From the NCBI RefSeq assembly GCF_000422285.1, contig NZ_AULM01000028.1, positions 1-51,693 on the forward strand: a DNA stretch of 51,693 nucleotides, given 5' to 3'. This DNA is from Desulfatiglans anilini DSM 4660 (GTDB lineage Bacteria > Desulfobacterota > DSM-4660 > Desulfatiglandales > Desulfatiglandaceae). Made by a program: the position numbers and the translations under genes. The notes under the pieces were generated by a model. It did no database searches, was not told the origin of the DNA, and worked only from the letters and a program-made list of their open reading frames with translations. Position 1 is the first letter of the stretch; the number at the start of each line of letters is the position of its first letter. Of this stretch, positions 1-51,693 are shown piece by piece.

Positions 1-477
1 CGCTTCCAAAGGGTGATGCGGGCCGTTGAGCGCACCAGCGACAAACGCGGTCAACTGCTGCTCAAACCGGACATCGAGGTGGAGGCCTGGTGGACCACGC
101 TCGATCTGCCGGATGAAAAGGTGATCCGGCTTTACGAGGACCACGCCACCAGCGAGCAGTTCCACAGTGAGATCAAATCCGACATGGACATGGAACGCCT
201 GCCATCGGGCAAGTTCGCCACCAATGCCCTGATCTTGACTTTGGCCGGTCTGGCCTACAACATCCTGCGTTTCATCGGGCAGTTGGGCCTCGTCGGAGAC
301 CGGTCGCCCTTACGCCATCCGGCCAAAAGGCGCCGCATCAAAACGGTCATCCAGGAACTGATGTATCTGGCTGCGCGGCTGGTCACAACCGGCCGGCGTT
401 TGAAAATCGTCTTCAGCCGACATTGTCCGGCTTTTGAAGCCTTCGGGGCTGTGTACAACCGCCTGGCATGCGGCTAG
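1..477 (+). CDS. IS1380-family transposase, C-terminal part (5' end outside window)
   Basis: The reading frame is open from base 1 and ends at TAG 475-477, so this is the 3' part of a longer gene cut by the window edge. The visible ~158 residues carry the C-terminal signature of IS1380-type DDE transposases: the EQFHSEIKSDMDMERLPSG stretch with the last catalytic Glu region, followed by FATNALILTLAGLAYNILR. These enzymes cut and paste their own IS. A GTG at 13 and an ATG at 16 are internal codons, not credible starts. No inverted repeat marking the element's right end could be fixed in the following 380 bp, so whether the IS is intact is unknown. Family assignment comes from motif recall. Confidence 0.8.
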   Translation, partial: RFQRVMRAVERTSDKRGQLLLKPDIEVEAWWTTLDLPDEKVIRLYEDHATSEQFHSEIKSDMDMERLPSGKFATNALILTLAGLAYNILRFIGQLGLVGDRSPLRHPAKRRRIKTVIQELMYLAARLVTTGRRLKIVFSRHCPAFEAFGAVYNRLACG

Positions 478-857
478 ATCCGCAAACCAGGAAGTTTCAT
501 CAACCAAGATAGGTTATCTCAGGGTGAATCATGCCTAAAAAAAGCCATAAAACATAAATATTTAGCAAAGAGCATAAAGAAGGACTCAAATAGTGGGTGT
601 AAAAGCTTCAGAACACTCACATCTACCGGCGGACAGGTCGATATTACGCTTCTGAGCCTGAAACCGGACGACTGTTTACTGGAGTCTCACGGATTCAGGA
701 CCTTGTTAAGAAAGCATCGGAAGATAGACAGCGCTCGCCCATCAAAGACTTGCTTTCACACAGATCAATCACTGAAAAAAAATGCGATTAATAATTTAAA
801 TAATAGGCAGATACCATGAGAAAATGACTGAACACAATCCTAAATATGGAGAAAAAA
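478..857. other. Gene-free AT-rich stretch between the two transposases
   Basis: No credible coding region was seen. The stretch should contain the right end of the IS1380-type element and the promoter of the RAYT gene. A string at 502-515 (AACCAAGATAGGTTA-like) partly resembles the inverted core of the repeat family described below, but it lacks the GGTCGGACC palindrome. I do not count it as a copy. Confidence 0.4.
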
Positions 858-1664
858 ATGCCTAGGGCAAACCGACACTACATTCCAGGTCACGCATGGC
901 ATCTCACACACAGATGCCATAAAAGAGAGTATCTGCTGAAATTCTCCAGGGATCGGCAGGGATGGATCCATTGGCTTTTCGAAGCCAAGAAGCGATATGG
1001 ATTGACCATCCTGAATTACACCGCAACCTCCAATCACATTCACTTGCTTGTCTATGACCAAAACGGTGGAGATACCATTCCAAAAAGTATTCAGTTGGTA
1101 GCAGGACGTACGGCTCAGGAGTATAATCAAAGAAAAAATCGAAATGGCGCTTTTTGGGAAGATCGCTACCACGCAACAGCCATACAAACAGATAGTCATT
1201 TGGTTCAATGTCTTGTTTACATAGATTTGAATATGGTCAGGGCCGGCGTCGTCAAGCATCCATGTGACTGGCCTCACGGAGGCTATAGAGAAATCCAGGA
1301 AAATCCAAAGCGATACAGATTGATCGACCGTGAAGTATTAATGCATTTGCTAGGCATTAGAGACGGCGATCAATTGACACTGTCACACCAAAGATGGGTC
1401 GAGAAGGCGCTTCAGACCACGGAAAATGTTCGGGAAGAGAGATGGACAGAGAGCGTCGCTGTTGGAAATCTTTCTTTTATTGAAGACATAAAAGAAAAAT
1501 TGGGTGAAAGAGGAGTCGGCAGGAAAGTCGTGGAAAGCAGAAAAAGCTGTGAACTCAGAGAGTGCCGGTTTCCTTATAATGGCGATTCTGACCCTGAAAA
1601 CGCTGTTTTAAGGCTTGAAAACGAGATATTTTGGGATGATAGCCAATTAATTTCAACTAGATAA
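858..1664 (+). CDS. REP-associated tyrosine (Y1, HUH) transposase, RAYT
   Basis: This is a single-strand DNA transposase of the Y1_Tnp (IS200-like) superfamily, in the REP-associated RAYT branch. The HUH metal motif is in SNHIHLLVY (about residues 60-66). The GAFWEDRYHA block follows, then the YIDLNMVRAGVV helix whose Tyr (about residue 121) is the candidate nucleophile. The open frame begins at ATG 846, but a GGAG at 848-851 sits 6 nt before ATG 858, so 858 is preferred (268 aa). Such proteins lack their own IS ends and act on short palindromic repeats in trans. Here the last ~28 codons lie inside a copy of a dispersed repeat, and the stop TAA 1662-1664 abuts its CTTGGTCCGACCCC core. The 3' end overlaps livM antisense by 12 bp. 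The gene is more AT-rich than its neighbours, consistent with transfer. Confidence 0.88.
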   Translation: MPRANRHYIPGHAWHLTHRCHKREYLLKFSRDRQGWIHWLFEAKKRYGLTILNYTATSNHIHLLVYDQNGGDTIPKSIQLVAGRTAQEYNQRKNRNGAFWEDRYHATAIQTDSHLVQCLVYIDLNMVRAGVVKHPCDWPHGGYREIQENPKRYRLIDREVLMHLLGIRDGDQLTLSHQRWVEKALQTTENVREERWTESVAVGNLSFIEDIKEKLGERGVGRKVVESRKSCELRECRFPYNGDSDPENAVLRLENEIFWDDSQLISTR

Positions 1665-1678
1665 CTTGGTCCGACCCC
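1579..1678 (+). repeat. REP-like element, copy A (inside RAYT 3' end)
   Basis: This ~100 bp unit begins near AATGGCGATTCT, contains AAGGCTTGAAAACGAG, and ends in the core CTTGGTCCGACCCC at 1665-1678. The core holds the palindrome GGTC-C-GACC. The last ~28 RAYT codons and its stop lie in this copy. On the other strand the same bases give livM its last residues and stop. The left boundary is approximate, set by comparison with the other copies. Confidence 0.75.
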
Positions 1679-2585
1679 AAAATCGGAAAATTCCTCGTCT
1701 GAACATCATGATCGAAGCTACATAGAGAAGGCCCAGGATGAGGGGCCAGACATTGGTGTAAGTGCTCAGAAGATCCTTCAGGTAAACAAGTGACAGAGCG
1801 CCCATGACGGGACCGTAGAGGGTGCCCATGCCGCCTACCAACGTCATGAGCACGATGTCGCCCGACGTGTCCAGACTCAAAGTGAAAAGCGGCACGAAAT
1901 TCTGGAGTGCGGCATACAACCCTCCGGCCAAGCCGGCAAAACCGGCCGACAACGCAAAGGAAATGAGCTTGAAGAATTTTGGGTTGTACCCGATGTTCAT
2001 GGCACGGGTTTCATTCTCTCTGAGGCATTCGAGGGTTTTCCCGAAGGGGGAGTGAATGATGCGCAATCCAAGGATGACAGCCAGGACGAAACAGAACAAA
2101 ATGAAATAGTACATCACCAGTTCCGATGTGAAATCGATCGGGCCCAGAGGCGGCCTCGGCACACCGTGCAAACCGTCGTCTCCGCCCGTGAGCGAACGCC
2201 ACTTGAAGGCGACAAAGTAGATCACCTGCGCGAAGGCCAACGTCACCATGGCGAAATAGATCCCGCGCCGCCGTATGGACAGAAACCCTATCGGGAACGC
2301 CGCCGCCGTGCTCACGAGAATGCCGGCCAGCAACCCCACGGGAAGAGGCACGGCGAAATGGATAAGCATCAGTCCCGTCGTATACGCGCCGAGACCGAAG
2401 AAGGCGGCATGGCCAAACGAGAGCAGGCCCGTATAGCCGAAACAGATGTCATAACCCAGCGCAAAAATGGCGAAGATCAGCATCTGGCTGGCCAAGGCCT
2501 TATAGGGGGTCATAAACGGCAGAAACAGCAGCGCGATCGATGCCGCCGGAACGATCCAGTAAAGGTGATTCTTTTTTGTCTCCAT
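1653..2585 (-). CDS. livM: Branched-chain amino acid type ABC transporter, permease LivM
   Basis: This is the second membrane subunit of a LIV (HAAT-family) importer in the inner membrane. The protein is 310 aa with about eight to nine hydrophobic segments. It has the LivM signature YTGLLSFGHAAFFGLGAYT near residues 50-70 and ENETRAMNIGYNPKFFKL, the loop that contacts the ATPases. The start ATG 2583-2585 lies 15 bp after the livH stop, so it is last in the operon. Its 3' end is odd: the final codons read W-GRTKLSS and the stop TGA comes from repeat copy A, so a few native C-terminal residues appear to have been replaced. The same GRT(K/R)LS tail ends two unrelated genes in this window. The transport role is secure at family level; the substrate is unknown. 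Confidence 0.92.
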   Translation of the reverse strand: METKKNHLYWIVPAASIALLFLPFMTPYKALASQMLIFAIFALGYDICFGYTGLLSFGHAAFFGLGAYTTGLMLIHFAVPLPVGLLAGILVSTAAAFPIGFLSIRRRGIYFAMVTLAFAQVIYFVAFKWRSLTGGDDGLHGVPRPPLGPIDFTSELVMYYFILFCFVLAVILGLRIIHSPFGKTLECLRENETRAMNIGYNPKFFKLISFALSAGFAGLAGGLYAALQNFVPLFTLSLDTSGDIVLMTLVGGMGTLYGPVMGALSLVYLKDLLSTYTNVWPLILGLLYVASIMMFRRGIFRFWGRTKLSS

Positions 2586-2600
2586 CGAGCCCCACCCCGT

Positions 2601-3479
2601 CTATTCGAAGAATTCTGCCCGGCCGAAGAACCCCCGCGGCCGGATAATGAGGATGAACGCCATGAATGCATAGACGAGGACTTTGGCCATGGGAGGCCAG
2701 AAAACGATGCCCAGGGTAATCAATTCCCCGATGATGAGCCCCGCCAGGATCGACCCTCCGATACTGCCCATGCCCCCGATGATGACCACCACGAAGGTCT
2801 CCACGAGCATATCCATCCCCATGAGGGGCTGAACATTCTGAAGCGGCGCGGACAGGGCCCCTGCAAGGCCGGATAGACCCGCCCCAAACCCGAAGACCAG
2901 CGTGAAGGTCTTGGCGATGTCGGTTCCGAGGGCGCTGACCATCCCAGCGTCATCCGTTCCTGCACGAATGACAGCCCCGAGCCTAGTCTTCGAGATGAAA
3001 AACCAGACGCCGAAGGCCAATGCGGCCGTCAGCAGGATGATGAAGAGGCGATATTTAGGATACATGATGAAACCGAGGTCGACAACGCCCGACAGCACAT
3101 CCGGGATGTTGAACGGTTCGCCCTCCGGACCGAAGATGACCTTGATCCCGTCCTGGATGGCGAACATCAAACCGAATGTGAGGAGTAGATTGTAAAAGTG
3201 GGGCAGGTTGTAAAGCCTGCTGACGAGCGTCTTTTCCAGGAAAATACCAATCAGACCGACAACGATCGGACAGATAACGATGGCGGCGAAGAACGGCACT
3301 TGGAGCAGGCTCACGAATGTGTAGGCCGCGTAAGCTCCCAGCATGTAGAGGGCCCCGTGCGCAAAATTCACCACTCCGAGGGTGCCGAAAATGACCGTGA
3401 GGCCCAAGGAAAGCAGCACGTAGATGGAGCCGAGGATGAGCCCGTTGAAAAGCTGCACGACCAGAAACTGAATGCTCAT
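2601..3479 (-). CDS. livH: Branched-chain amino acid type ABC transporter, permease LivH
   Basis: This is the first membrane subunit of the LIV importer (292 aa, about eight transmembrane segments). Family features are LSLGLTVIFGTLGVVNFAHG near the N-terminus, the conserved VIRAGTDDAGMVSALG loop that docks on the ATPases, and GFGAGLSGLAGALSAP. It ends with the common RPRGFFGRAEFFE tail and was not touched by the repeat. It lies 15 bp upstream of livM and about 110 bp downstream of the binding-protein gene, with a hairpin in that gap. With LivM it forms the heterodimeric pore through which the periplasmic ligand passes. Confidence 0.93.
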   Translation of the reverse strand: MSIQFLVVQLFNGLILGSIYVLLSLGLTVIFGTLGVVNFAHGALYMLGAYAAYTFVSLLQVPFFAAIVICPIVVGLIGIFLEKTLVSRLYNLPHFYNLLLTFGLMFAIQDGIKVIFGPEGEPFNIPDVLSGVVDLGFIMYPKYRLFIILLTAALAFGVWFFISKTRLGAVIRAGTDDAGMVSALGTDIAKTFTLVFGFGAGLSGLAGALSAPLQNVQPLMGMDMLVETFVVVIIGGMGSIGGSILAGLIIGELITLGIVFWPPMAKVLVYAFMAFILIIRPRGFFGRAEFFE

Positions 3480-3531
3480 GACAGGAAGTCCTCGAAGAGA
3501 ATTCTGCGCACCGACTCACGCCCCCCGGGAT

Positions 3532-3574
3532 GGGGGCTTTCCGGACGGAGATCGTTTTCGGAAAGCCCGCCCCC
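3532..3574 (-). promoter_or_regulatory. Intercistronic hairpin between livK and livH
   Basis: GGGGGCTTTCCG at 3532-3543 pairs with CGGAAAGCCCGCCCC at 3559-3574, giving a stem of about 12 bp with one bulge around a 15-base loop. It lies in the 109-bp gap between the binding-protein stop and the livH start, and there is no U-run. Hairpins at this place in transporter operons often stabilise the upstream message or cause partial termination, so binding protein exceeds permease. That role is inferred here. Confidence 0.5.
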
Positions 3575-3588
3575 GGCCGAGGCTCGAT

Positions 3589-4788
3589 CTAATTCAACTG
3601 GCAGCCGAACTGGCCCGGCTTGCCGAAGGCTTGTTCCGCAGGCAGGGTTCCCACGATCTCGAAAAAGTCCTCTTTCTCCTTGATCTCATCGGGCTTTTTT
3701 GCCCGCAGGAGGAGGGCTTTAGCGACCTGCATGTGGTCCTCGGGCCGGATATACCCGGGATTCGCGAAGAGATCCGTAAAGGTATGCCCTTCCAAGGCCT
3801 TGATCACCGCATCGGGATCGGTGGTTCCAGCCCGTTTCACCGCCTCCAGATACTGCCAGGTGGCGCTGTAAACGGCGGCGGCCATAAAATGGGGCCTTTC
3901 GCCGTGCCGCTCCAGGTATTTATCCGCGTATTCACGAGCACCCGGATTATCCACTTTCCAGTTCCAGGATGCAGCCACATAGTTGTCGGCGAAAACTTCG
4001 GGGCCAGCACCCCGGATATCCGGCTCGAAAAGCAGGGCATGGACGATCTTGCACTTTTTCTTGAGGCCGTACTCCATGGCGGCCTTCGTTGAATTGACGG
4101 CGTCCTTCCCGACATTCAACAGTACCAGAACATCCGGGTTCGCGTTCATGGCGTTCAGGATATATGGGCTGTAATCGGAGGTCCCCAGAGCCACCATGTC
4201 GTTCCCGACATGTTCTCCGCCCTTCTCTTTCAGGGCGGCCGTGAAATGTTTCAGGAGATCATGGCCCCAGGCATAATCGGAGGTAATGGTATACCAGCGT
4301 TTTCCGAGATGCTCCGCACCCCAGAGCCCTACCGTGGTGGCGAGCATATAATCGTTGTAGTTCCACTTGATGACGTACTTGTTGCACTTGTCGCCGATGA
4401 GCGCAGTAGTGCCGGCGGAGGTCGAAATGAAAGGCTTTTTGTGGAGGCGTGCCTGCTCAGCGACGGCCAGTGCTGCAGCACTGTTCGGGCAGGCTATGAT
4501 GACATCCACATTCTCCTTCTCATAGAGTTCCTTGGCCTTTTCGTTCGCTACACCCGGGTTGTAGGCGTGATCCCTCGAAACCAGCTCGATCTTTTTACCC
4601 AGCACCGTCCCATAATCTTCGATCGCCATCTCGGCAGACCATTTCTCCCCGTTGCCAATGACAGCCAGCGGTCCGGACAGGACGCTGATCACCCCTACCT
4701 TGACCGTATCCGCTGCAAGAGCCTGAAAAACGGTCAAACAGTAGAAAAGACCGAACGTGACGACGCTTACCAAAAACTTTTTGCTCAT
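3589..4788 (-). CDS. livK: LIV-type ABC transporter periplasmic substrate-binding protein
   Basis: This is the periplasmic ligand receptor of the LIV system (PBP type I fold, about 399 aa). It has a clear signal peptide with cleavage predicted after FQALA, then DTVKVGVISVLSGPLAVIGNG, the usual opening of this family. SAAALAVAEQARLHKKPFISTSA is a ligand-loop region. Two ATGs are available. GGAGG on the minus strand is about 9 nt from the second (4786-4788) but only about 3 nt from the first (4792-4794), so MSKKF is preferred. Its place between livF and livH, in an operon opened by a beta-keto acid cleavage enzyme, suggests the ligand is related to that enzyme's substrate. The specificity cannot be read from sequence. 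Confidence 0.92.
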   Translation of the reverse strand: MSKKFLVSVVTFGLFYCLTVFQALAADTVKVGVISVLSGPLAVIGNGEKWSAEMAIEDYGTVLGKKIELVSRDHAYNPGVANEKAKELYEKENVDVIIACPNSAAALAVAEQARLHKKPFISTSAGTTALIGDKCNKYVIKWNYNDYMLATTVGLWGAEHLGKRWYTITSDYAWGHDLLKHFTAALKEKGGEHVGNDMVALGTSDYSPYILNAMNANPDVLVLLNVGKDAVNSTKAAMEYGLKKKCKIVHALLFEPDIRGAGPEVFADNYVAASWNWKVDNPGAREYADKYLERHGERPHFMAAAVYSATWQYLEAVKRAGTTDPDAVIKALEGHTFTDLFANPGYIRPEDHMQVAKALLLRAKKPDEIKEKEDFFEIVGTLPAEQAFGKPGQFGCQLN

Positions 4789-4914
4789 GTCCATACCCCT
4801 CCTTTTTTGTGCATCCCTTTCAAGTATGCCGCATACAGCCCGTCTCCACGTATGACCCGCGGGATTTCACCTCCTTTCCTGGAACCATTCGACCAGCCGA
4901 TCTCAAGGCGCCTT

Positions 4915-5610
4915 CTATACGCCGAGATATCTCTTCTGCACGTCATGTGCTTGACGAAAAGCATCATTGCTGTCCGTGTAGACGATCTCACCGCCATAGA
5001 GAATGCAGTGGCGATCCGCCACCTGCGTAGCGAAGCGCGTGTTCTGTTCGATGAGCAGGATCGTGATGCCGCTCTTCTTGATTTCCTCGATGATGGACGC
5101 AATCGATCGAACGAGGATGGGCGCAAGCCCTTCGGTAGGCTCATCCAGAAGGATGATCTCCATTCTCGCCCTGAGGATCCGCGCGATGGCAAGCATCTGT
5201 TGTTCGCCGCCGCTCAGTTTCGAACCCGCATGTCTGCTGCGCGCCTTCAGAACAGGGAAGGCCTCGTACACCCTTTCGGCGGTCCATCCCTCCTGCCCTC
5301 GGCCCCATAAAGGAAGAGACAGATTTTCGAGCACGGTCAGGCTGGGGAAGATCCGCCGCTCCTCGGGAACGAAACCCACACCCCGCTTCGCAATCCGGTG
5401 CGGGGGCAGGCCGGTTATGTCCTCGCCTTTCAAGATCACCTTGCCCGAGCGAGGCGGGACCATCCCCATAATGCTCTTGCAGGTGGTTGTCTTGCCGGCC
5501 CCGTTCCTGCCTAGCAGCGTCACCGCCTCGTTCTCACGGATATCCATCGAAAGGCCCCTGAGGATATGGCTCTGATCGTAATAGGTGTGAATGTCTTCCA
5601 GAACGAGCAT
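4915..5610 (-). CDS. livF: LIV-type ABC transporter ATP-binding protein LivF
   Basis: This is an ATPase subunit of the importer on the cytoplasmic face. Walker A is LLGRNGAGKTT, the ABC signature is KLSGGEQQM, Walker B is IILLDEPTEGLAP, and the switch His is in LLIEQN followed by the ADRHCIL block. The protein is 231 aa, normal for LivF. The open frame can be extended two codons to a TTG, but ATG 5608-5610 sits in TGAGGATG directly behind the livG stop, with the GGAGGG of the livG 3' end as ribosome site, so it is chosen. It ends with YLGV, as is usual. Confidence 0.94.
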   Translation of the reverse strand: MLVLEDIHTYYDQSHILRGLSMDIRENEAVTLLGRNGAGKTTTCKSIMGMVPPRSGKVILKGEDITGLPPHRIAKRGVGFVPEERRIFPSLTVLENLSLPLWGRGQEGWTAERVYEAFPVLKARSRHAGSKLSGGEQQMLAIARILRARMEIILLDEPTEGLAPILVRSIASIIEEIKKSGITILLIEQNTRFATQVADRHCILYGGEIVYTDSNDAFRQAHDVQKRYLGV

Positions 5611-5612
5611 CC

Positions 5613-6365
5613 TCAAAACCCTCCCAGATATGCTTCCTGAACCCGCGCGTTGCGTTGGATATCCGCCGGGGTGCCGTCGGCGATAACCATCCCCTGGTTC
5701 AGAACCGTCATCCGGTCCGATATCGCCAGGACAAGGTCAATGTTGTGGTCGATGAGGACGACGGTCATCCTATCCGATATCTCTTTGACCAGTTTCATCA
5801 TCCATTGCATATCGGCGGACTGCAGCCCTGCCATCGGTTCGTCCAGCAGGAGCAGCTCAGGATCCGTGGCAAGTGAAATCCCGATGTCGAGGATCCGCTT
5901 TTCGCCATAAGAGAGGTTTTCTGCACGGTGGCCGCATTTGTCTGCGAGGCCGATCATCTCCAGCACACGGTCCGCTTTCCGCATCGCCTCCTTCAGTGCC
6001 GAGGCCTTGCGCAGAAAATTCCCCGCGTGTCCAAGGCGCGACTGCGCCGCCACCCGGATGTTTTCGTAGACGGAAAGGTCGGGAAATATGCTCGTGATCT
6101 GAAAAGAGCGGGCGATGCCCTTCCGCGAGATGCGAAACGGCGGCAGGCCCGTGATTTCCTTTCCTTTGAAAAGAATCGAACCGCTCGAGACGGGGAATAT
6201 CCCGGTCAACAGGTTGAAAAAGGTGGTTTTCCCCGCGCCGTTGGGGCCGATAATGGAGTGGATAGCCCCCTGTCTCACTTTCAGGTTGACGCCGCTAAGC
6301 ACTTCCAGCGCTCCGAAGCGCTTGGAAACCTCGACCGTTTCGAGGAGCACCTGTCGATCATTCAT
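5613..6365 (-). CDS. livG: LIV-type ABC transporter ATP-binding protein LivG
   Basis: This is the second ATPase subunit (250 aa). Walker A is IIGPNGAGKTTFFNLLTG, the signature is NLSYGEKRILDI, Walker B is ELLLLDEPMAGL, and the switch His is in VLIDHNIDLVL. The open frame continues upstream to 6785, but that extension reads the BKACE gene out of frame. The family N-terminus (VLLETVEVSKRFGALEVLSG) fixes the start at ATG 6363-6365, 14 bp after the BKACE stop. It is followed by livF with only two bases between stop and start, so the pair is translationally coupled. Confidence 0.93.
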   Translation of the reverse strand: MNDRQVLLETVEVSKRFGALEVLSGVNLKVRQGAIHSIIGPNGAGKTTFFNLLTGIFPVSSGSILFKGKEITGLPPFRISRKGIARSFQITSIFPDLSVYENIRVAAQSRLGHAGNFLRKASALKEAMRKADRVLEMIGLADKCGHRAENLSYGEKRILDIGISLATDPELLLLDEPMAGLQSADMQWMMKLVKEISDRMTVVLIDHNIDLVLAISDRMTVLNQGMVIADGTPADIQRNARVQEAYLGGF

Positions 6366-6379
6366 CACTCGCCCTGATA

Positions 6380-7303
6380 TCAGGTGGCAGGCTGCCGAGG
6401 GGGCAGCCCCAGGATTTTCCGGGCCTCCGCCGGAGTCGCAATCTCTCGGTCCAACTCCTTGGCCAGCCGCGCCACCTTGGCAACCAGTTCCGCGTTGCTC
6501 TTTGCAGGAACGCCTTTGGAAAGATAAATATTGTCCTCGAAGCCGACCCGCACATGTCCCCCCATGATCATCCCCACCGTCCCCATGTAGAACTCGTTCA
6601 GACCAATGGCGCAGACGGACCAGGGTGAGCCTTCGGGAATATTCCTGACCATATACTGAAGGTTTTCCACCGTGGCCGGGATCTGCCCGAGGACACCGAG
6701 AACACATTGAAAGTAGAGGGGCTCCTCGAGGGACCCCAATTCTTTCAGAACCTTGCAGTTGTTGATCATGCCGATATCGTAGCATTCCAGTTCAGGTTTG
6801 ACGCCATGCTCCTTCATGACCTGCGCCATGTGAACCATATCCGGAAAACTTTGGACCATGACAAATTTGAGCAGAAACTCGTCCGTCTTCCTGTTGTAAA
6901 TATCGATCACCGGCGATCCCGCGTTGAATGAGGCGATGTCGGGTTTCGTTTCAGGGTTTGCCGCCAATATCGGTATGACGCCTATCCTGCCTTTCACCGA
7001 CTCTTCGGGTATTTCTTTGTAAAGCCAGTCACCGTCTACGCGCCGCCCCGTACCCCCCGTAGAGACATTGACGAGGATATCGCAGCGTTCGCGTATACCC
7101 GAAACGGCCTCCGCATACCACTCCGGCCTGTTTTCCCCTTTGCCGGTCTGCGGGTTTCTCGGATGAAGGTGTACGATCGATGCCCCAGCCTCGTAGGCCT
7201 CGACCGTCGCCTCCACCTGCTCCCTCGGTGTTTTTGGAAGATAGGGATTGGACTCCGGAGACGCCCCCCCGGTGATAGCGGCTGTAATGATCAGTTTATC
7301 CAT
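6380..7303 (-). CDS. Beta-keto acid cleavage enzyme (BKACE, DUF849 / Kce-like)
   Basis: This is a zinc-dependent TIM-barrel enzyme. In characterised members it condenses a beta-keto acid with acetyl-CoA and cleaves the product to acetoacetate and a CoA thioester; the founding member, Kce, acts on 3-keto-5-aminohexanoate in lysine fermentation. The protein is 307 aa and starts MDKLIITAAITGGASP. The zinc pair is in IVHLHPRNP (His45, His47), and RCDILVNVSTGGTG is a further family block. GGAGG lies 8 nt before the ATG. It is the first gene of the LIV transporter operon, so the importer probably brings in its substrate or precursor. Family members differ in substrate, so lysine degradation is not claimed. 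Confidence 0.88.
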   Translation of the reverse strand: MDKLIITAAITGGASPESNPYLPKTPREQVEATVEAYEAGASIVHLHPRNPQTGKGENRPEWYAEAVSGIRERCDILVNVSTGGTGRRVDGDWLYKEIPEESVKGRIGVIPILAANPETKPDIASFNAGSPVIDIYNRKTDEFLLKFVMVQSFPDMVHMAQVMKEHGVKPELECYDIGMINNCKVLKELGSLEEPLYFQCVLGVLGQIPATVENLQYMVRNIPEGSPWSVCAIGLNEFYMGTVGMIMGGHVRVGFEDNIYLSKGVPAKSNAELVAKVARLAKELDREIATPAEARKILGLPPRQPAT

Positions 7304-8200: not shown

Positions 8201-8622
8201 TTGATCCTCTCTCCGCTCCTGCCATCTTTCAGCCCCAGCCGGGGTCGAGAAACCAACCTGCCAGACCCCTCGCTACGGCATATCTTATGGAATGATTTTA
8301 ATCATTTATACATGCACTGGCACGACAACCCCTGCGAGAGAAAACCGCAGACCAGCCGCTCCCACATCGATCGGGTCGATTCACTCGGCAGCACTCCTGA
8401 GTGAACACCTGAAATCGGTTTTCACACAGCGGAACTTCATTGATATCAGATAGAAAACGCACCACAATAAACAAAGGCAGAGCGCTCAAATCACTCAGCA
8501 GCACTTTGCTTAGAAGAGTCTTTCAGGAACCCAAATGGCGACTCTAAGGCTGAAAAACAGCGCCATTTAGAATGATAACTATTTATTTCCGAGCAGTTAG
8601 CTTGGTCCGACCCGAACTATAA
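8201..8622. other. Intergenic region between ferredoxin and dctP, with repeat copy B
   Basis: No gene is supported. The right part is repeat copy B. The rest should contain the ferredoxin promoter, which I could not define, and the terminator region of the TRAP operon. Confidence 0.4.
8533..8613 (+). repeat. REP-like element, copy B
   Basis: A stem formed by AAATGGCG (8533-8540) and CGCCATTT (8561-8568) encloses CTCTAAGGCTGAAAAA, a string shared with other copies. After about 32 bases comes the core CTTGGTCCGACCCG (8601-8614). The core ends 9 bp from the dctP stop codon, so here the element abuts but does not enter the gene. Confidence 0.72.
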
Positions 8623-9654
8623 CTACTTGCTGAATTCCTCCACCATTTCCTGGACGGCCTTGAAGACGGCTTCCCCGTCGACGCCTTTTGCGTTGGCGTT
8701 TTTGATGTAGGTATCGAAAACCGGTTTTACGGCCTCCTTGAACTTCGCCGATTCCTCGTCGGACAGTTCGATAAACTCATGACCGAGTTTCTCCACAAAT
8801 TCACGCCCTGATTCGTCGCTGTCTTCCCAGGCCTTGGCCGTTATGTTAGCGTATTTTTTGCTCACATCCGTAATGATCTGCTGCAGGTCGGGCGGGAGGC
8901 TGTTCCATTTCTTGAGATTCATAGCCACGAAGAAGCCCTGGGTGTATGCGCTGCTGTAGGTGAGCGTCGTATACTTGAGAACCTCTCCCTGTTTGAAGCC
9001 CTCGAGAGCCTCCATGGGCACCAGGGTCCCATCCACGATGTTTTTCCTGAGGGCGTCATAAGTCTCGCCTTGAGACATAGCCACAGGAGCGGCCCCATAG
9101 GCCCGCACGATCAACTGACTCGTGCCGGTCGAGCGGATCTTCAAACCCTGTATATCCTCGAGCTTACGGACGGGTTTGTTCACGGTGTGAAGCAGCCCGG
9201 GCCCATGCGCGAACAGGTAGCAGATGTGGACATCGCTCATCTCCTGCGGCTGGAACTTGTTGTACAATTCGTTGATCACCTTCGTAGCGATGTAGGCGTT
9301 GCGGTAGCCAAGCGGGTTGTCCACCGCCTCCATAATAGGGAAGCGCCCCGGGGAGTAGGCCAGGACGGAGGATCCGAAATCCGAAATGCCCTTCACCACC
9401 CCGTCATAGATCTGCGGGGCAGGCGTGAGAGACCCCCCGGTAAAGATTTTTATTTTTATCCTGCCGCTGGAAAGCTCTTCAATCTCTTTTGCCCAGGCTT
9501 GGGGCACCTTGGTCTGAATGTGGGTTGGAGGGAAAAACGTGCTGTAGGTGAAGTTGTAGGTTTCCGCCTGTGCCTGCGGAACGACCATCCCCATCGACGC
9601 AAGCAATGCACCGCATACCAGACACGCCACTGTGAACCAGAAATTTTTCCTCAT
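8623..9654 (-). CDS. dctP: TRAP transporter solute-binding protein, DctP family
   Basis: This is the periplasmic receptor of a tripartite ATP-independent transporter, which captures an organic anion for sodium- or proton-driven uptake. The protein is 343 aa with a signal peptide ending near VPQAQA, then YNFTYSTFFPPTHIQ. The conserved DctP stretch GLKIRSTGTSQLIVRAYGAAPVAM contains the Arg that usually binds the ligand carboxylate. The frame is open further upstream, but MRKNFW at 9652-9654 has GGAG about 7 nt ahead and starts the signal peptide. It is last in a dctQ-dctM-dctP operon, 112 bp after dctM. The ligand cannot be deduced. Confidence 0.92.
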   Translation of the reverse strand: MRKNFWFTVACLVCGALLASMGMVVPQAQAETYNFTYSTFFPPTHIQTKVPQAWAKEIEELSSGRIKIKIFTGGSLTPAPQIYDGVVKGISDFGSSVLAYSPGRFPIMEAVDNPLGYRNAYIATKVINELYNKFQPQEMSDVHICYLFAHGPGLLHTVNKPVRKLEDIQGLKIRSTGTSQLIVRAYGAAPVAMSQGETYDALRKNIVDGTLVPMEALEGFKQGEVLKYTTLTYSSAYTQGFFVAMNLKKWNSLPPDLQQIITDVSKKYANITAKAWEDSDESGREFVEKLGHEFIELSDEESAKFKEAVKPVFDTYIKNANAKGVDGEAVFKAVQEMVEEFSK

Positions 9655-11565: not shown

Positions 11566-12646
11566 AAGACCCGCTCATCAACACTAACCATGAACGAAAA
11601 GATCTTTTCAAACCAAGACGCGGCGGTTGAACTCGATGGAACTTCCAATCGGGATACACGATTTCAAGCTGCAAAAGCCCTGCTCGGCTGTTTTCGATAT
11701 TCCCTCAAGTAGGACAACCACCTCACCTACCCCATGCAAACGCCACCATACCGGATTGCAGCTGAAAACTGCATATATGCCCGGAATATATGGATTAAAT
11801 GTTAAAGCTTTACGATAGACACCGAGCAGCGCTCAGCGGAGCACTTCTCATCCGGAAACCCCTGGATAACGGCAACAGTCAACGAGGTTTTCCCGGCAAC
11901 TCGATTTGAAAAAAATTTTGATACGCTTTATTGGGACAACGGACACCCTTGAAGATGCCCTGTACTTTTACAGATTGAAATGAGAAGAACATGAAGGTTA
12001 GAAAACAATAGAGACTTAACGAATATAGCTCGTCTAATGTATTAGGAAGGCGTACCTAGACGCGAACTTCACCATTTGTTCGCATATCGCAAACCGAAAG
12101 GATCATCAGCCGCAAGCCGTAACGCCTTCCCTCCTTTTTGAAAAAAATAGAAGACCTGTTTGAAACCAATGACTCTTTCTTGAAAGAAGATGCTCGAAAA
12201 GCAGCCAAGATTAAACTTCCCGTTAGACTTCTAGAATACGCATCCTTCTTTTGTCAAGCCCTATTTGGGGTCGGACCAAGATAGGTACCTGGATAGACTC
12301 GAAAAAAAATCGAACACGGGCCAGTTTTACCCCTTAAAACCGCCTTTTGAACCTGAAAAAACCTGTTTTAAGCCATTGAACGATCCTTCTGAAAACCTGA
12401 ACAAAAACGATCCTCAACCCGAGATCCTCAACATCTGCAAATGATTCGAGGCAATAAACCTCAGCCCAGCCCAACAGGGATACAAGGAGCCTGGACGCGA
12501 ATCCGAGCAACGCTTAAAGCTTTCAGCAGGTGTCCATCATATCCCCCTGCCTTGCATCTACATCTGCTTAAAACCGTCATTTGGGCCTTGAAAAGGCCAT
12601 TCTAAGGCAGCAAAACACCATGTTTTCCGGCAATAACAATGTGATT
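11566..12646. other. Long AT-rich gene-free region with two opposed REP-like copies
   Basis: About 1.08 kb without a supportable gene on either strand. The part nearest dctQ should hold the TRAP operon promoter. Repeat copies C (minus) and D (plus) occupy the far end, with their cores facing outward. The stretch is much more AT-rich than the coding flanks and may be decayed or transferred DNA. Confidence 0.45.
12267..12375 (-). repeat. REP-like element, copy C (inverted)
   Basis: The core is present in reverse as GGGGTCGGACCAAG at 12267-12280. Reading on the minus strand, the preceding ~90 bases include CTTAAAACAGG and GGCGGTTTTAAGG strings similar to the body of the other copies. The far boundary is approximate. 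It forms a divergent pair with copy D. Confidence 0.6.
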
Positions 12647-12672
12647 TCAATTGGATAACCTGGTCCGACCCC
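12576..12672 (+). repeat. REP-like element, copy D (enters AI-2E-type permease 3' end)
   Basis: The body has GGCCTTGAAAAGGCC, a perfect short inverted repeat, then TTCTAAGGCAGC and TGTTTTCCGGCAATAA, the latter shared with copy E. The core is CCTGGTCCGACCCC (12659-12672) with one change from the consensus. On the minus strand it encodes the last residues GRTRLSN and the TGA stop of the permease gene. Confidence 0.75.
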
Positions 12673-13702
12673 ATTGGTTGATGATGGCTTGGACGAGGGT
12701 GGCGAGGGGGATGGCGAAGAAGATTCCCCAGAAACCGAGGACACCGCCGAAAAAGAGGACTGCGACGATGATGGCGATGGGGTGCAGGTTGACGGCCTCC
12801 GAGAAAAGGAGGGCGACCAGCACGTTCCCGTCAAGTATCTGGATGAGAAGATACGCGCCGACGGTATAGAAAAAAGGCGCGGTCGGCCCCCATTGGAAAT
12901 AGGCGATGAAGGCCACGGGAAACGTCATCACGGTGGCACCGATATAGGGGATCAGAACGGAAAGCCCGACGAAAAGACTCAGCAGCATTGCAAACTCGAG
13001 ACCCAGGAGTGAAAAGGTGATGAAACTGACCACCCAGACGATGAGGATCTCCCAGGCCTTCCCGCGTACATAGTTCCCTATCTGGCGGTCGACCTCTTGC
13101 CAGACCTCGCTGGCCAGCCGCCTTTCCGCCGGAAGAAATCGTCGCACCCATTCGAGCAGGCGATTCTTGTCTTTCAGGAAGAAAAACACAAGCATAGGTA
13201 CAAGGAACATATAGACCACGATCCATACGATCAAGCGGGCCGAAGCGATCGACAAGGAAACGAGCCGCTGCCCGGCATGGGCAAGCTCGGAGCGCAGCAT
13301 GGCCATGAAATCCCGGATCTGCTGCTCACTGAAAAACTCGGGGTACCGCTCCGGCAATTGCATCAAGGCATCCTGTGTCCAGGATATCTTGGAGGGCAGC
13401 CCCTGGATGAGCTGTACCAACTGCTGCCAGAGAAGCGGGATGAGCGCCAGGAAGAGAAAAAGCAGGCCGGCCATGAAAAGCACGAAGATGATCACTACGC
13501 TCAAGATGCGGGGAATTTTCAAACGCTCGAAGAATTTCACCAGCCCTTCGAGCAGATAGGCAACGACAAGGCTGACCAAGACGGGGGCGAGGATCTCGCC
13601 CAGTGCCAGGACGAGGACCCCGCCGATTACGAGAAGCACCCCGAGGATTACGATCTGGGGATCGGAAAGATGTCTGCGGAACCAAGCTATAACGGGATTC
13701 AT
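12647..13702 (-). CDS. AI-2E / PerM family membrane transporter
   Basis: This polytopic inner-membrane protein (351 aa) belongs to the AI-2E transporter family (PF01594). Members export autoinducer-2 or act as Na+/H+ or metabolite exporters, so the name does not prove the substrate. Features are paired N-terminal helices, a long soluble segment around residues 100-150, GNYVRGKAWEILIV, and the conserved C-terminal LIPYIGATV and GGVLGFWGIFFAIPLATL. The start ATG 13700-13702 has GGAG 7 nt ahead, so 13 codons of the longer frame are rejected. The C-terminus IINQW-GRTRLSN and the stop come from repeat copy D, implying loss of the original tail. It is probably last in the GAF-kinase-UspA operon. 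Confidence 0.9.
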   Translation of the reverse strand: MNPVIAWFRRHLSDPQIVILGVLLVIGGVLVLALGEILAPVLVSLVVAYLLEGLVKFFERLKIPRILSVVIIFVLFMAGLLFLFLALIPLLWQQLVQLIQGLPSKISWTQDALMQLPERYPEFFSEQQIRDFMAMLRSELAHAGQRLVSLSIASARLIVWIVVYMFLVPMLVFFFLKDKNRLLEWVRRFLPAERRLASEVWQEVDRQIGNYVRGKAWEILIVWVVSFITFSLLGLEFAMLLSLFVGLSVLIPYIGATVMTFPVAFIAYFQWGPTAPFFYTVGAYLLIQILDGNVLVALLFSEAVNLHPIAIIVAVLFFGGVLGFWGIFFAIPLATLVQAIINQWGRTRLSN

Positions 13703-20209: not shown

Positions 20210-20687
20210 CGGTGTTTGCGGCGCGGGCGGGACCGCCCTGCACCCGCGATCACGAAAGATCCGGCTGGCAAACGGTTCCGATGTCTATTTGGTAGCAAGA
20301 TACCGGGTCATAATCAACCGGTTTTTCGTCCAAGGCTACCACGAGGCCCTCCGGAAAGCGTGCCGCAAAGACGCGGCCTGCCCGCCTGCACCACTCATAT
20401 GTGTGGCTCGAACGGGAAACGCCAGTAGCGATAGGGATCCGCCCCCCGTGGCCGCCCTGATCACCGGAAGGATGTGGAGAAAATGACTCTCTTCTCCGCA
20501 TGGAGACGGACTGAGAGAGAACTCTGTTAACCCATAAGGCTGCAGGCTCTATTGCTCTATTGTAATCGTCATTTTAGCGGCGAAAAGCTGCTTCTAAGCT
20601 TGAAAAACGAGGTCTTTTCCGGCAATAATGGAATTATTTCAAAGAGGAAGCTTGGTCCGACCCCAATACTACAATAAAGGAGGTGTC
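20210..20687. other. Intergenic region upstream of the DJ-1/PfpI gene, with repeat copy E
   Basis: No firm gene was seen. A minus-strand frame of 83 codons (20250-20501) has some protein-like texture but no family match and no ribosome site. The right 100 bp is repeat copy E, which lies immediately before the PfpI ribosome site, so that gene's promoter must lie within or before the repeat. Confidence 0.4.
20567..20664 (+). repeat. REP-like element, copy E (5' of DJ-1/PfpI gene)
   Basis: The body CATTTTAGCGGCGAAAAGCT with TTCTAAGCTTGAAAAACGAG is followed by TCTTTTCCGGCAATAATGG and the exact core CTTGGTCCGACCCC at 20651-20664. GCGAAAAG can pair with CTTTTCCGGC to form a hairpin. This copy sits at a gene's 5' side, 23 bp before the ATG, unlike the copies that abut gene ends. 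Confidence 0.75.
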
Positions 20688-21275: not shown

Positions 21276-21362
21276 GTGAAAATCATTTCCGGTAGACGGC
21301 CGCGTCGGGCGGGGGAAATGGGCAAAGAACGCCGGTGCCAGAAATCTTTCTTATCAGGATCA

Positions 21363-21455
21363 TTTTGGCGGTAAAAAGCTGGTTCTAAGCTCGAAAAACG
21401 GGGCTTTTTTGTACCATAATAAAGTTTTTTCAAATAGATAGCTTGGTCCGACCCC
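21363..21455 (+). repeat. REP-like element, copy F (enters FAD oxidoreductase 3' end)
   Basis: The body reads TTTTGGCGGTAAAAAGCTGG then TTCTAAGCTCGAAAAACGGG and GCTTTTTTGTACC, so that AAAAAGC and GCTTTTT pair. The core CTTGGTCCGACCCC is exact at 21442-21455. On the minus strand it supplies the last codons GRTKLSI and the TGA stop of the FAD oxidoreductase gene. The hairpin with its T-run may act as the terminator for that gene. Confidence 0.78.
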
Positions 21456-22788
21456 TTTTGATGATGGATTCGGCGGCGAGGATGCCGCTTGCGGAGGCCT
21501 GGAGGAGGCCGCGGGTGATCCCGGCGCCGTCGCCGACGGCAAAGAGGTTCTCCACACCGGTTTCCAACTCGGGGGAAAGCGCGATCCGATTGGAATAGAA
21601 TTTGACTTCCACCCCATAGAGGAGGGTGTGCCGCGAGTAGACGCCTGGGGCCAGGCGATCCAGGGCCTGGAGCATTTCGATGATGCTCAGCATGTGCCGG
21701 TAGGGGAATACGAAGCTCAAATCCCCCGGGGTCGCCTTCGCCAGCGTCGGGCGGGTCAGGCACCGCTCCAGGCGCGAGGCTGTTGTGCGTCTCCCGGCGG
21801 AAAAATCCCCCAGCCGCTGAACGATGGCCCCACCGCCCAGCAGGTTGGCCAGTCGTGCGATGTACAGCCCGTAGGCGATCGGATCGTTGAACGGCTCCGT
21901 AAACCGGCTGCTCACGAGGATCGCAAAATTGGTATTCGCACTTCGTTTTTCGGCGTGGCTGTGGCCGTTGACGGTGGTGATCCCCTCGTAACGCTCAGTC
22001 ACCACCTCCCCGTAGGGGTTCATGCAGAAGGTCCGCACCTTCTCGTCGAAGGTCCGGGAGTAGTAGATCAGCTTCGCCTCATAGGCGATATCCGTAACCT
22101 CCCTCAGAACTGCAGCCGGGAGTTCCACCCGGACCCCGATATCCACAGGGGCCGAACTCGTCCTGATCCCGAGCCGGTCGATCTGCTCCTTCATCCAGCC
22201 CGCGCCGGAGCGTCCCGGAGCGGCGATCACGAAACGCCCCTCGACGAAGCGTCCGTCCCCCAGTTTGACCCCTCTTACGCGCCCATCCTCGCAGATCAGA
22301 TCCGCGACACGGGTTTCGGTCCAGGTCTCTACGCATCCCTCCAGTTCGCGCCGGAAGGCGTCGAGGATCAGAACGCAGTTTTCGGTCCCCATGTGGCGGA
22401 TCCGGGTCGGAATCAGTTCGAGATCCGCCAGTCGCGCCCGTTCCTGAAGCGCCTCCATCTGCGGGGTCCACTCCCCGAAAATGCGCTGGGGCGCCCCGTG
22501 GGCGGCATAAAGCCCGTCGGCGGCCTCGAGCAGCCGGCGCAGTTCCCCTTCCTCGACGAAATCCCCGAGGACCCCTCCGACATCCGTCGAAAGGGTCAGC
22601 TTCCCGTCGCTGTAAGCGCCCGCTCCTCCCCAGCCGCAGATGCGGTCCCGCGCATCGTCCCTTCGGCGCGCGGGGAGGTCCTTGCCCTGTTCAAGCAGGA
22701 GGACCTTTTCGACGCCCGAGCGGGCCAGCGTCAGCGCCGCAAAGATCCCGGCCGGCCCCCCTCCAGCGATGATCACGTCGTATTTCAT
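21430..22788 (-). CDS. FAD-dependent oxidoreductase / dehydrogenase (COG2509-like)
   Basis: This cytoplasmic flavoprotein (452 aa) has an N-terminal dinucleotide-binding motif, DVIIAGGGPAGIFAALTLARSG, and a C-terminal flavin motif, LFAVGDGAGITRGLLQASASG. The middle resembles uncharacterised FAD-dependent dehydrogenases whose substrate is unknown. The family N-terminus sets the start at ATG 22786-22788, dropping 15 codons of the longer frame. The C-terminus IIKR-GRTKLSI and the stop derive from repeat copy F, so the last native residues have been replaced. It stands alone. Confidence 0.85.
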   Translation of the reverse strand: MKYDVIIAGGGPAGIFAALTLARSGVEKVLLLEQGKDLPARRRDDARDRICGWGGAGAYSDGKLTLSTDVGGVLGDFVEEGELRRLLEAADGLYAAHGAPQRIFGEWTPQMEALQERARLADLELIPTRIRHMGTENCVLILDAFRRELEGCVETWTETRVADLICEDGRVRGVKLGDGRFVEGRFVIAAPGRSGAGWMKEQIDRLGIRTSSAPVDIGVRVELPAAVLREVTDIAYEAKLIYYSRTFDEKVRTFCMNPYGEVVTERYEGITTVNGHSHAEKRSANTNFAILVSSRFTEPFNDPIAYGLYIARLANLLGGGAIVQRLGDFSAGRRTTASRLERCLTRPTLAKATPGDLSFVFPYRHMLSIIEMLQALDRLAPGVYSRHTLLYGVEVKFYSNRIALSPELETGVENLFAVGDGAGITRGLLQASASGILAAESIIKRGRTKLSI

Positions 22789-38779: not shown

Positions 38780-38807
38780 CGACTCTCTCCTCTTCCCAAG
38801 CAAACTG

Positions 38808-39034
38808 GTTTCCATCCGGAAATGGTCGTTTCGCCGATCTCGGCGTCAATCTGCACGTTGGCTTGTGCGTCAACCTATAGGCCGCCTCCGCGCAAGCGCT
38901 TGATGTCCTCGATTTCAGCAAACCAGGACCCGCCGCGAAGCGGCGTGTCTGTGCACGCTCAACGTGAAAAGAAAAAATCCTCGTTTCAGGGTTGGGGACC
39001 GGGTTGTACCGGAACATCCTTTCCGGGTGGAAAC
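38808..39034 (+). mobile_element. TIR element (MITE-like), copy 1
   Basis: The left end GTTTCCATCCGGAAATGG and the right end (reverse complement GTTTCCACCCGGAAAGG) form imperfect terminal inverted repeats. The interior has the shared TCTGCACGTTGGCTTGTG, TCCGCGCAAGCGCTTGAT and ACCCGCCGCGAAGCGG strings. It has no coding capacity. It lies 28 bp upstream of the ppsA ATG, so it may carry or disrupt its promoter. Confidence 0.75.
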
Positions 39035-47138: not shown

Positions 47139-48038
47139 ATGGCTGAAACCCCCCAAAAACCGCTGCTGCTCGCACTCGACGGCTCCGAACGCGCCTTTCA
47201 GACCGTCAGGTACATCAGCGAAATCCCGTCCATGCGCAGCATGCCGGTCGTGCTCTTCAGCGTATTCAGCAGGATCCCGGAACCTTACTGGGACCTGCAG
47301 CAGCAGCCTCACGTCGGGCGCCGCATCGCGGAGGTGCACGCCTGGGCCATCGAAGAGGAGAAACGGCTCAAGGCCTATATGGAAAAGGCGCGCAAACACT
47401 TGTTGAAGGCCGGGTTTTCACCGGAATCGGTCAGGATCCTGATTCATGCGAGGGAGTCGGGGATCGCCAGGGACATCCTCAAACAGGCCGCAAAAGGATG
47501 CCACGCCGTGCTCGTCGGCCGCAAAGGCATGGCCCACCTGAGGCGAATCGTCCTCGGCAGCGTTTCCACCAAACTCCTCGAGGGGATGCATTTCACTCCC
47601 CTGATCCTGGTCGGAAAGGGGGCCCGCCCGGGCAAGGTCCTGATCGCGGTGGACGGGTCCGAAGGATCGCTGCGCGCTGTCGATTTTGCCGCTGCAACCC
47701 TTGACGGCAGCTCGATGGAGGTCACCCTGACCCATGTTGTCAGGGCCTCCACCAGAGAGACGATCGGAGAGGCCGAAATCGTGATCGGACGGTTTTTCGA
47801 CGAGGCCAAAGAGCACCTCATGGCCGGGGGGATGCGCCCCACCCAGATCAGCACCCAGGTCATCACGAATGTCCCGTCGCGGGCGGCCGCCATCGTGGAA
47901 GAGGCCCGAAAAGGCGGGTACGGCACCATCATCGCCGGCCGAAGGGGGATCAGCAAGGTGGAGCAGTTTTTTTTGGGCCGCGTCACAAACAAGCTGATCC
48001 AAATGGGGAAGGGCCTGGCGATATGGGTCATCAACTAG
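47139..48038 (+). CDS. Tandem universal stress protein (two UspA domains)
   Basis: This 299-aa protein has two Usp domains. Domain 1 (residues 1-160) ends VLVGRKGMAHLRRIVLGSVSTKLL. Domain 2 (about 165-299) ends IIAGRRGISKVEQFFLGRVTNKLI. Domain 1 keeps the ATP motif G-x2-G-x9-G-S; domain 2 has Arg in place of the Ser/Thr and may not bind ATP. GGAGG is 5-6 nt before the ATG. The stop is directly followed (2 bp) by TIR element copy 2. It is the second gene of a CBS-Usp pair and may be co-transcribed with it. Confidence 0.9.
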   Translation: MAETPQKPLLLALDGSERAFQTVRYISEIPSMRSMPVVLFSVFSRIPEPYWDLQQQPHVGRRIAEVHAWAIEEEKRLKAYMEKARKHLLKAGFSPESVRILIHARESGIARDILKQAAKGCHAVLVGRKGMAHLRRIVLGSVSTKLLEGMHFTPLILVGKGARPGKVLIAVDGSEGSLRAVDFAAATLDGSSMEVTLTHVVRASTRETIGEAEIVIGRFFDEAKEHLMAGGMRPTQISTQVITNVPSRAAAIVEEARKGGYGTIIAGRRGISKVEQFFLGRVTNKLIQMGKGLAIWVIN

Positions 48039-48040
48039 AT

Positions 48041-48261
48041 TTCATCCGGAAATGGTCTATTGGGCCAATCTCGGCGTGAATCTGCACGTTTGCTTGTGCG
48101 GCGACCTGCAGGCCGTCTCAGCGCAGCTATTTGATTTCATTGACATGACCCAGACCGGGACCCGCCGCGAAGCGGTGGGACTGAGCACGCGCAGCGTGTA
48201 AAGAAAAATCCTCCTTTTTGGATGGAAACCGGGTTCTACGGCGAAATCATTTCCGGATGAA
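48041..48261 (+). mobile_element. TIR element (MITE-like), copy 2
   Basis: Perfect 14-bp terminal inverted repeats TTCATCCGGAAATG (48041-48054) and CATTTCCGGATGAA (48248-48261) bound a 221-bp unit. Internal hairpins are CCCGCCGC/GCGGTGGG and CACGC/GCGTG. It has no coding capacity. It begins 2 bp after the tandem UspA stop and ends 55 bp before the acyl-CoA synthetase GTG, filling the gap between the two genes. Confidence 0.82.
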
Positions 48262-51586: not shown

Positions 51587-51589
51587 GGA

Positions 51590-51693
51590 GTTTCCGTCCG
51601 GAAATGGTCTTTTTGGCCAATCTCGGCGTCAATCTGCACGTTTGCTTGTGCGGCGACCACCAGGTCGCCTCCGCGCAAGCGCTTGATCTCCTT
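51590..51693 (+). mobile_element. TIR element (MITE-like), copy 3 (cut by window end)
   Basis: It starts GTTTCCGTCCGGAAATGG and continues with TCTTTTTGGCCAATCTCGGC, TCTGCACGTTTGCTTGTG and TCCGCGCAAGCGCTTGAT, matching the first half of copies 1 and 2. The other end lies beyond the window. It begins 3 bp after the receiver gene stop. Confidence 0.75.

Follow-up and report, generated by a model that had tools for sequence, protein, structure and literature searches.

The stretch of DNA analysed here, called the window below, comprises the 51,693 nucleotides of contig NZ_AULM01000028.1 of Desulfatiglans anilini DSM 4660. It begins with the 3' part of an IS1380 transposase gene (13..477, + strand; NF033539, E 4.8e-40), followed by a RAYT/TIRYT-type HUH transposase gene (846..1664, + strand), whose conserved start is probably the ATG at position 858, and by a livM-type ABC permease gene (1653..2585, - strand; PF02653, E 4.9e-46 over residues 31-288 of 310), in which the last seven codons and the TGA consist of repeat DNA. 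Two further genes on the reverse strand, coding for an AI-2E family permease (12647..13702; PF01594) and an FAD-dependent oxidoreductase (21430..22788), end in the same way. The C-termini of the three proteins are GRTKLSS (livM), GRTRLSN (AI-2E permease) and GRTKLSI (FAD oxidoreductase), each directly followed by TGA, which confirms the original prediction that three non-homologous proteins of the window carry the same tail. The tails are encoded by GGGGTCGGACCA[AG]G, read in all three cases in one common frame, as GG followed by the codons GGT CGG ACC A(A/G)G..., and the residues that precede them are ...FRFW, ...INQW and ...IIKR, respectively.

It had also been proposed that the shared tail originates from the repeat at the gene ends, and the comparison with relatives lacking the repeat bears this out, since unit-free orthologues of all three proteins have other termini. 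In the AI-2E permease the PF01594 domain is complete, with profile position 326 of 327 reached at residue 344 of 351, and the orthologues without the repeat terminate in KAWSQHRRKK... or NVWPRQ.... Most orthologues of the FAD oxidoreductase align only up to residue 445 of 452, immediately before the tail, and those without the repeat continue after ..AARAI.KR with 0-11 variable residues, while the nearest livM homologues have the terminus RGGIMSLLRDKLKLKI or similar. Between the three loci, homology is absent in the gene bodies and present in the repeat past the stop codon. A fourth gene, coding for a TRAP solute-binding protein, is also found at a repeat copy, with its stop at 8623, 8 nt short of the copy ending at 8614.

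The repeat was first described as 28 nt long (1653-1680); it is real, but the conserved unit is longer, extending over ~108 nt with an almost invariant outer tip. The sequence GGGGTCGGACCAAG occurs seven times in the window with up to two mismatches, against 0.66 in shuffles, and the 4.67-Mb genome has 23 exact copies, with none for the reversed control, and 37 copies when one mismatch is allowed. The unit begins with NGGGTCGGACCA, and its copies align over ~108 nt without the outer gene, showing a near-invariant tip and a degenerate body with motifs at fixed positions (nTAAC, TTGAAAT, AAAAA..C.TTTT, CTTA.AA, CTTTT, CAAAA and TTnTAAG). Six units are present in the window. The first, 1571-1678 (-), supplies the livM tail and constitutes the transposase element's right end, its placement relative to the transposase gene agreeing with the right ends seen in other genomes. 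The unit at 8507-8614 (-) lies 8 nt downstream of the stop of the TRAP gene, and those at 12267-12374 (+) and 12565-12672 (-) bound a 406-bp element, the latter unit containing the end of the AI-2E permease gene. The unit at 20557-20664 (-) precedes a DJ-1/PfpI gene, its outer end being ~32 nt from the gene start, and is thus a 5' neighbour that gives no tail, and a solo unit at 21348-21455 (-) is the source of the FAD oxidoreductase tail.

Genome-wide, 39 units were counted in the genome of the window (G000) and 42 in a congeneric sister genome (G039), using a model of the body only, with the tip excluded, which was itself trained on units initially found through their tip. All but a few of these units keep GGGTCGGACCA. 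Nearly every unit of the window's genome has an orthologue with matching flanks in the sister genome, which places most insertions before the split of the two species. No conserved RNA structure was detected in the units with RNAalifold or by shuffled folding (z -0.46), nor any Rfam match, and a conserved RNA structure for the whole unit was therefore rejected. The inner positions, ~65-107, form an imperfect palindrome of ~44 bp, and the model matches the reverse strand at many units, which suggests a predicted dimeric binding site. A second repeat family, composed of 105 nt plus 58 nt and containing ..ACCCGCCGCGAAGCGG.., is represented by three copies close to the ends of genes towards the right of the window (38806-38976, 48037-48208 and 51589-51693).

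The transposase matches NF047646 (E 8e-21, which is under the curated cut-off of the family) and Y1_Tnp (E 3.8e-9). Its HIH motif (residues 64-66) and the tyrosine Y125, in VYIDLN, are invariant in 15 homologues, except for one V at the middle residue of the motif, and the structural model finds its best fold match in 4ER8, where a RAYT is in complex with a REP hairpin. The model has helices at residues 162-223, in which respect it may be noted that TIRYT transposases have an extra C-terminal domain resembling helix-turn-helix profiles (PMC3733652, PMC6006769); no Pfam helix-turn-helix domain was found in the present protein at E-values up to 5. The last ~30 codons of the gene are inside the right-end unit, with the stop codon at the unit tip, and the corresponding residues have low confidence in the AlphaFold model (pLDDT <50 at residues 243-272), being probably disordered.

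The window's genome has a single intact RAYT of this type, which is 90% identical in the sister genome. Homologues were found at 35 named loci, including members of Desulfobacterota, Nitrospiria, SAR92 and Aminicenantes, and most of these loci have the same tip on the + strand ~100-140 nt (in few up to ~290 nt) before the ORF and an inverted one directly after it. The left and right tips co-vary within one element, as in the pair GGGGTCGGGCCACG / CGTGGCCCGACCCC. A unit model built from the genus only matches the left ends of the RAYT elements in these same lineages, completely and reaching the ORF start (E 1.4e-18 for the left end of locus L056), and also their right ends, on the reverse strand and overlapping the ORF end. 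Because both ends are matched by the unit model, the repeat corresponds to the terminal inverted repeat (TIR) of the element. The RAYT element of the window's genome has its left end at C17:68312 and its right end at 1678 of the window, and an IS1380 copy, whose remnant occupies positions 1-707, sits between the left end, on contig C17, and the RAYT gene. The contig break at the start of the window is due to this IS1380 copy, which spans it; contigs C17 and C26 are adjacent, joined via IS1380, in an order collinear with the sister genome.

The 406-bp element at 12267-12672 has inverted units at both ends and no gene called inside, and is thus MITE-like, lacking a transposase gene and sharing its ends with the autonomous element. 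No target-site duplication, a usual trait of MITEs that depend on DDE transposases, was seen by eye at its flanks (...CTATTT before and ATTGGT... after), nor was any evident by eye elsewhere; HUH transposases of the IS200/IS605 type are known to make no larger target-site duplications (PMC2817692). The element is conserved in the sister genome, where it is interrupted by IS21. The idea that end pairs bracket cargo at this site was rejected, since the longer interval in the sister genome is the IS21 inside the element. The interruption there consists of an istA/istB pair (L085 18085 to L086 1686; G039 3254084-3257586), apparently with a CCTTCT duplication.

These features match the TIRYT/TIRtron elements, described together with TIR repeat families by Di Nocera et al. 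2013 (PMC3733652), and subclass 2.1 of Quentin et al. 2018 (PMC6006769), which corresponds to RAYT group 1 of Bertels et al. 2017. As in those elements, a Y1 HUH transposase gene is placed between inverted terminal repeats, and not REP hairpins, the TIR lies over the 3' end of the gene (termed '3'ov' in PMC3733652), and dispersed TIR copies are moderately abundant, both single and grouped. Of the TIRYT traits, the HUH motif with the Tyr, a gene flanked by TIRs and dispersed repeats (39 and 42 units) were all found here. The TIR motif GGGGWSAS, reported for some of the described TIRs only, agrees with GGGGTCGG at seven of eight positions. The present repeat differs in being a separate sequence family, which occurs in this genus as well as in Desulfobacterota, Nitrospiria and further relatives, in having an end unit of ~108 nt that provides many genes with a stop and a C-terminal tail, and in that sequence constraint in situ was measured here between species. 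We found no reports in the literature of tail or stop supply, or of constraint in situ, for TIR families, and a search for stop-supplying inserts returned nothing specific. New here are a description of the sequence family, a count of the tails and their frames, and the constraint in situ.

The relationship to RAYTs with REP/BIME/REPIN sequences (Nunvar et al. 2010, PMC2817692) is also apparent, as the transposases belong to the same superfamily, and the repeats are in both cases clustered near the gene in some genomes, found near gene 3' ends, and kept by selection where they flank the gene. In contrast to REPs, the units have no GTAG/GTGG-tagged hairpin, form long inverted ends and show no predicted RNA structure as a whole; in particular, the canonical GT[AG]G tag 5' of a short stable hairpin is absent from the unit start. 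A classical IS200/IS605 element, which has subterminal hairpins and no terminal inverted repeats, was rejected given the inverted ~108-nt ends and an NF033573 score of 24 against a cut-off of 55. REPs lie mostly close to gene 3' ends, some of them at ORF ends (PMC3733652), and the coding-end REPs and the Rickettsia palindromic elements (cited in PMC3733652) likewise add peptide to unrelated proteins; here, however, the repeat is not inserted internally but read as a short tail with its stop, and it comes from an unrelated sequence family.

A search for further tailed genes was successful, with at least 13 distinct gene ends in the two genomes of the genus reading into units, though in all three frames. 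These belong to livM, the AI-2E permease, the FAD oxidoreductase, a beta-CASP RNase, an amine oxidase, a PfkB-like kinase, HisHF, MgtE, an outer-membrane efflux protein, a TIM-barrel protein, a truncated BKACE and two uncharacterised ORFs. The frames in use give tails starting with GRT, GVGP or GSDQ, so that the single frame expected from the window does not hold genome-wide: GVGP(R/S) is used by HisHF, MgtE and the PfkB-like kinase, and GSDQ is used as well. The identical frame at the three window genes is a small-sample coincidence, and a special role for the GRTKLS frame was rejected. The frame, and with it the tail, even differs between the two species, with GSDQAKPLI against GRTKSSH in the amine oxidase, ~31 residues starting at GSDQ against GVGPR in the efflux protein, and GRT against a long tail in the gene at C30:41919. 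Pfam domains are complete in nearly all tailed genes, indicating that little was lost. Given these complete domains and the different frames between species, the tail peptides look like by-products. In HisHF, a protein of histidine biosynthesis (L027:14744-16330 and L086:9283-10869), the GVGPR tail is present in both species and is supplied by the RAYT element's own left end.

The stop that had been envisaged as built into the repeat is indeed usual within 30 nt of the tip in two of the three frames, in 60 of 81 units for GRT and 47 of 81 for GVGP (14 of 81 for GSDQ), compared with about 33%, 31% and 25%, respectively, in a shuffled-body control. The conserved inner motifs nTAA (15-18) and TTGA (~23-26) put stops in these two frames. 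The RAYT element ends of other genera present the same stops (34/54, 27/54 and 6/54 in the same order), which are thus part of the conserved element end and older than its arrival at genes, not a feature acquired for gene ends. Insertion of the repeat into gene ends, which had been taken as the only explanation, holds as an origin of tails but not as the sole route. The sister genome lacks 4.94 kb (window ~1690-6633; L086 ~7419), exactly outward from the RAYT right end, a block comprising livM and neighbouring transporter genes; BKACE, which is full length in the window's genome, is cut in the sister genome at this deletion and has the tail GVGPSYLVEIN, showing that a deletion abutting a unit can also make tails.

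Regarding the position of the units, 19 of 38 outer ends in the window's genome fall in the interval from -100 to +20 nt around a gene 3' end, and in 12 of these cases the gene runs into the unit. Of the 26 outer ends that no gene enters, 7 follow a gene end at a distance of up to 20 nt, a zone that holds 3.3% of intergenic positions, an enrichment that is approximate because the simple codon model behind the gene calls misses genes (23% called intergenic). This model was trained on the window, and in other genera only long-ORF evidence was used. In the sister genome 19 of 42 units are found within 70 kb around the RAYT gene, against 0.6 expected. A clean pair of filled and empty insertion sites at base level was not found, nearly all copies being common to both species. 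In another genus (G050, locus L120), two GGGTCGGACCAAG tips, 28 nt apart, lie ~30 nt past the stop of the FAD oxidoreductase orthologue, and may be an independent or displaced copy at the end of this gene.

The excess of outer ends in the first 20 nt after a gene, relative to uniform intergenic insertion, could mean that the element actively targets gene 3' ends (terminators, stop-codon context or AT-rich tracts), as opposed to passive survival of copies there, and the ~436-bp element at C17:41534-41969, with gene 3' ends abutting both its sides, points in the same direction. The outer flanks, however, have by eye no clear consensus beyond A/T richness, and survival bias predicts the same trend, so active targeting is possible but rather doubtful.

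The comparison of orthologous copies, whose weight rests mostly on the two congeneric genomes, reveals a marked constraint on the tip. Among the 26 pairs of orthologous units that are free of register shifts, only 1 of 312 sites differs at tip positions 2-13, whereas the body columns of the same pairs differ at 17.8%, 13.8%, 10.4% and 4.0% with rising conservation among paralogues. Taking all orthologous pairs, differences amount to 11 of 455 in the tip (seven of them in one decayed copy), 371 of 3303 in the body and 759 of 4753 in the inner flank. This result was not produced by the search, because the body-only model left the tip out, and protein-level selection is excluded for the tip, because most copies are untranslated there or read in other frames. 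Selection on the repeat as DNA or RNA thus appears to maintain the tip, most simply through its putative recognition by the transposase, but the agent of its constancy may be the transposase, a host factor, copy-to-copy conversion or a local mutation bias. We tentatively consider, as the less probable case, that the TIR units of a group-1 RAYT element were kept at fixed sites of the chromosome, often at gene 3' ends, with strong purifying selection in the host on the tip NGGGTCGGACCA as DNA or RNA; the units would then form a domesticated array with a single-copy transposase, the tails being a side effect.

Similarly, the units could be host-domesticated 3'-end elements (a REP-like stabiliser of mRNA 3' ends, a terminator or a protein-binding site) that are selected at their present positions, with transposition as their origin only. 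The strong tip and graded body constraint in immobile orthologous copies, the fact that roughly half of the outer ends are found at 3' ends of genes, and the known location of most REPs no more than 20 bp from a gene 3' end (PMC3733652) would fit such a role, which is nevertheless unlikely considering that the units have neither a conserved RNA structure nor an Rfam match, and that about half of them are away from gene 3' ends, several facing gene starts. A function of the shared tail itself as a tag was one option of the original prediction; such a C-terminal tag, for instance for degradation or localisation and kept by selection on protein, is highly improbable. One peptide does occur on several unrelated proteins, and its first four residues show good conservation between the species in the AI-2E permease, the FAD oxidoreductase and the beta-CASP RNase, but the tip is equally strict where it is untranslated or read in another frame, tails occur in each of the three frames, and the frame, hence the tail, differs between the two congeneric species at the three genes mentioned above. 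Finally, a C-terminus shared by descent or chance, with the repeat unrelated, is refuted, as the three proteins belong to different families, their unit-free orthologues lack the tail, and the alignment of the units shows that homology ends at the gene body and goes on in the repeat beyond the stop.

In our view, the repeat is very probably the TIR of a TIRYT-type element, whose ends, moved in trans, survive at gene ends, with the tail as a by-product and the tip selected as DNA or RNA. Such an element would consist of the RAYT-like HUH (Y1) transposase gene between ~108-nt inverted ends, and, judging from linkage and homology, the transposase would cut and move unit ends in trans, with the unit tip NGGGTCGGACC as the candidate site of RAYT binding and cleavage. 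Copies falling in or just past the last dispensable codons of a gene would have survived and others would have been lost, a gene cut near its end being closed after about 5-9 additional codons, and some tails would derive from deletions abutting a unit.

Thus, the final codons and the stop of numerous unrelated genes, hisHF and mgtE included, can be rewritten cheaply by mobile-element ends, and common C-terminal peptides in annotated proteomes need not imply a common function. Two congeneric genomes with ~30 orthologous copies provide a measurable case of RAYT-linked repeat ends that are near-invariant in place, which bears on why RAYT-type transposases and their repeats persist.
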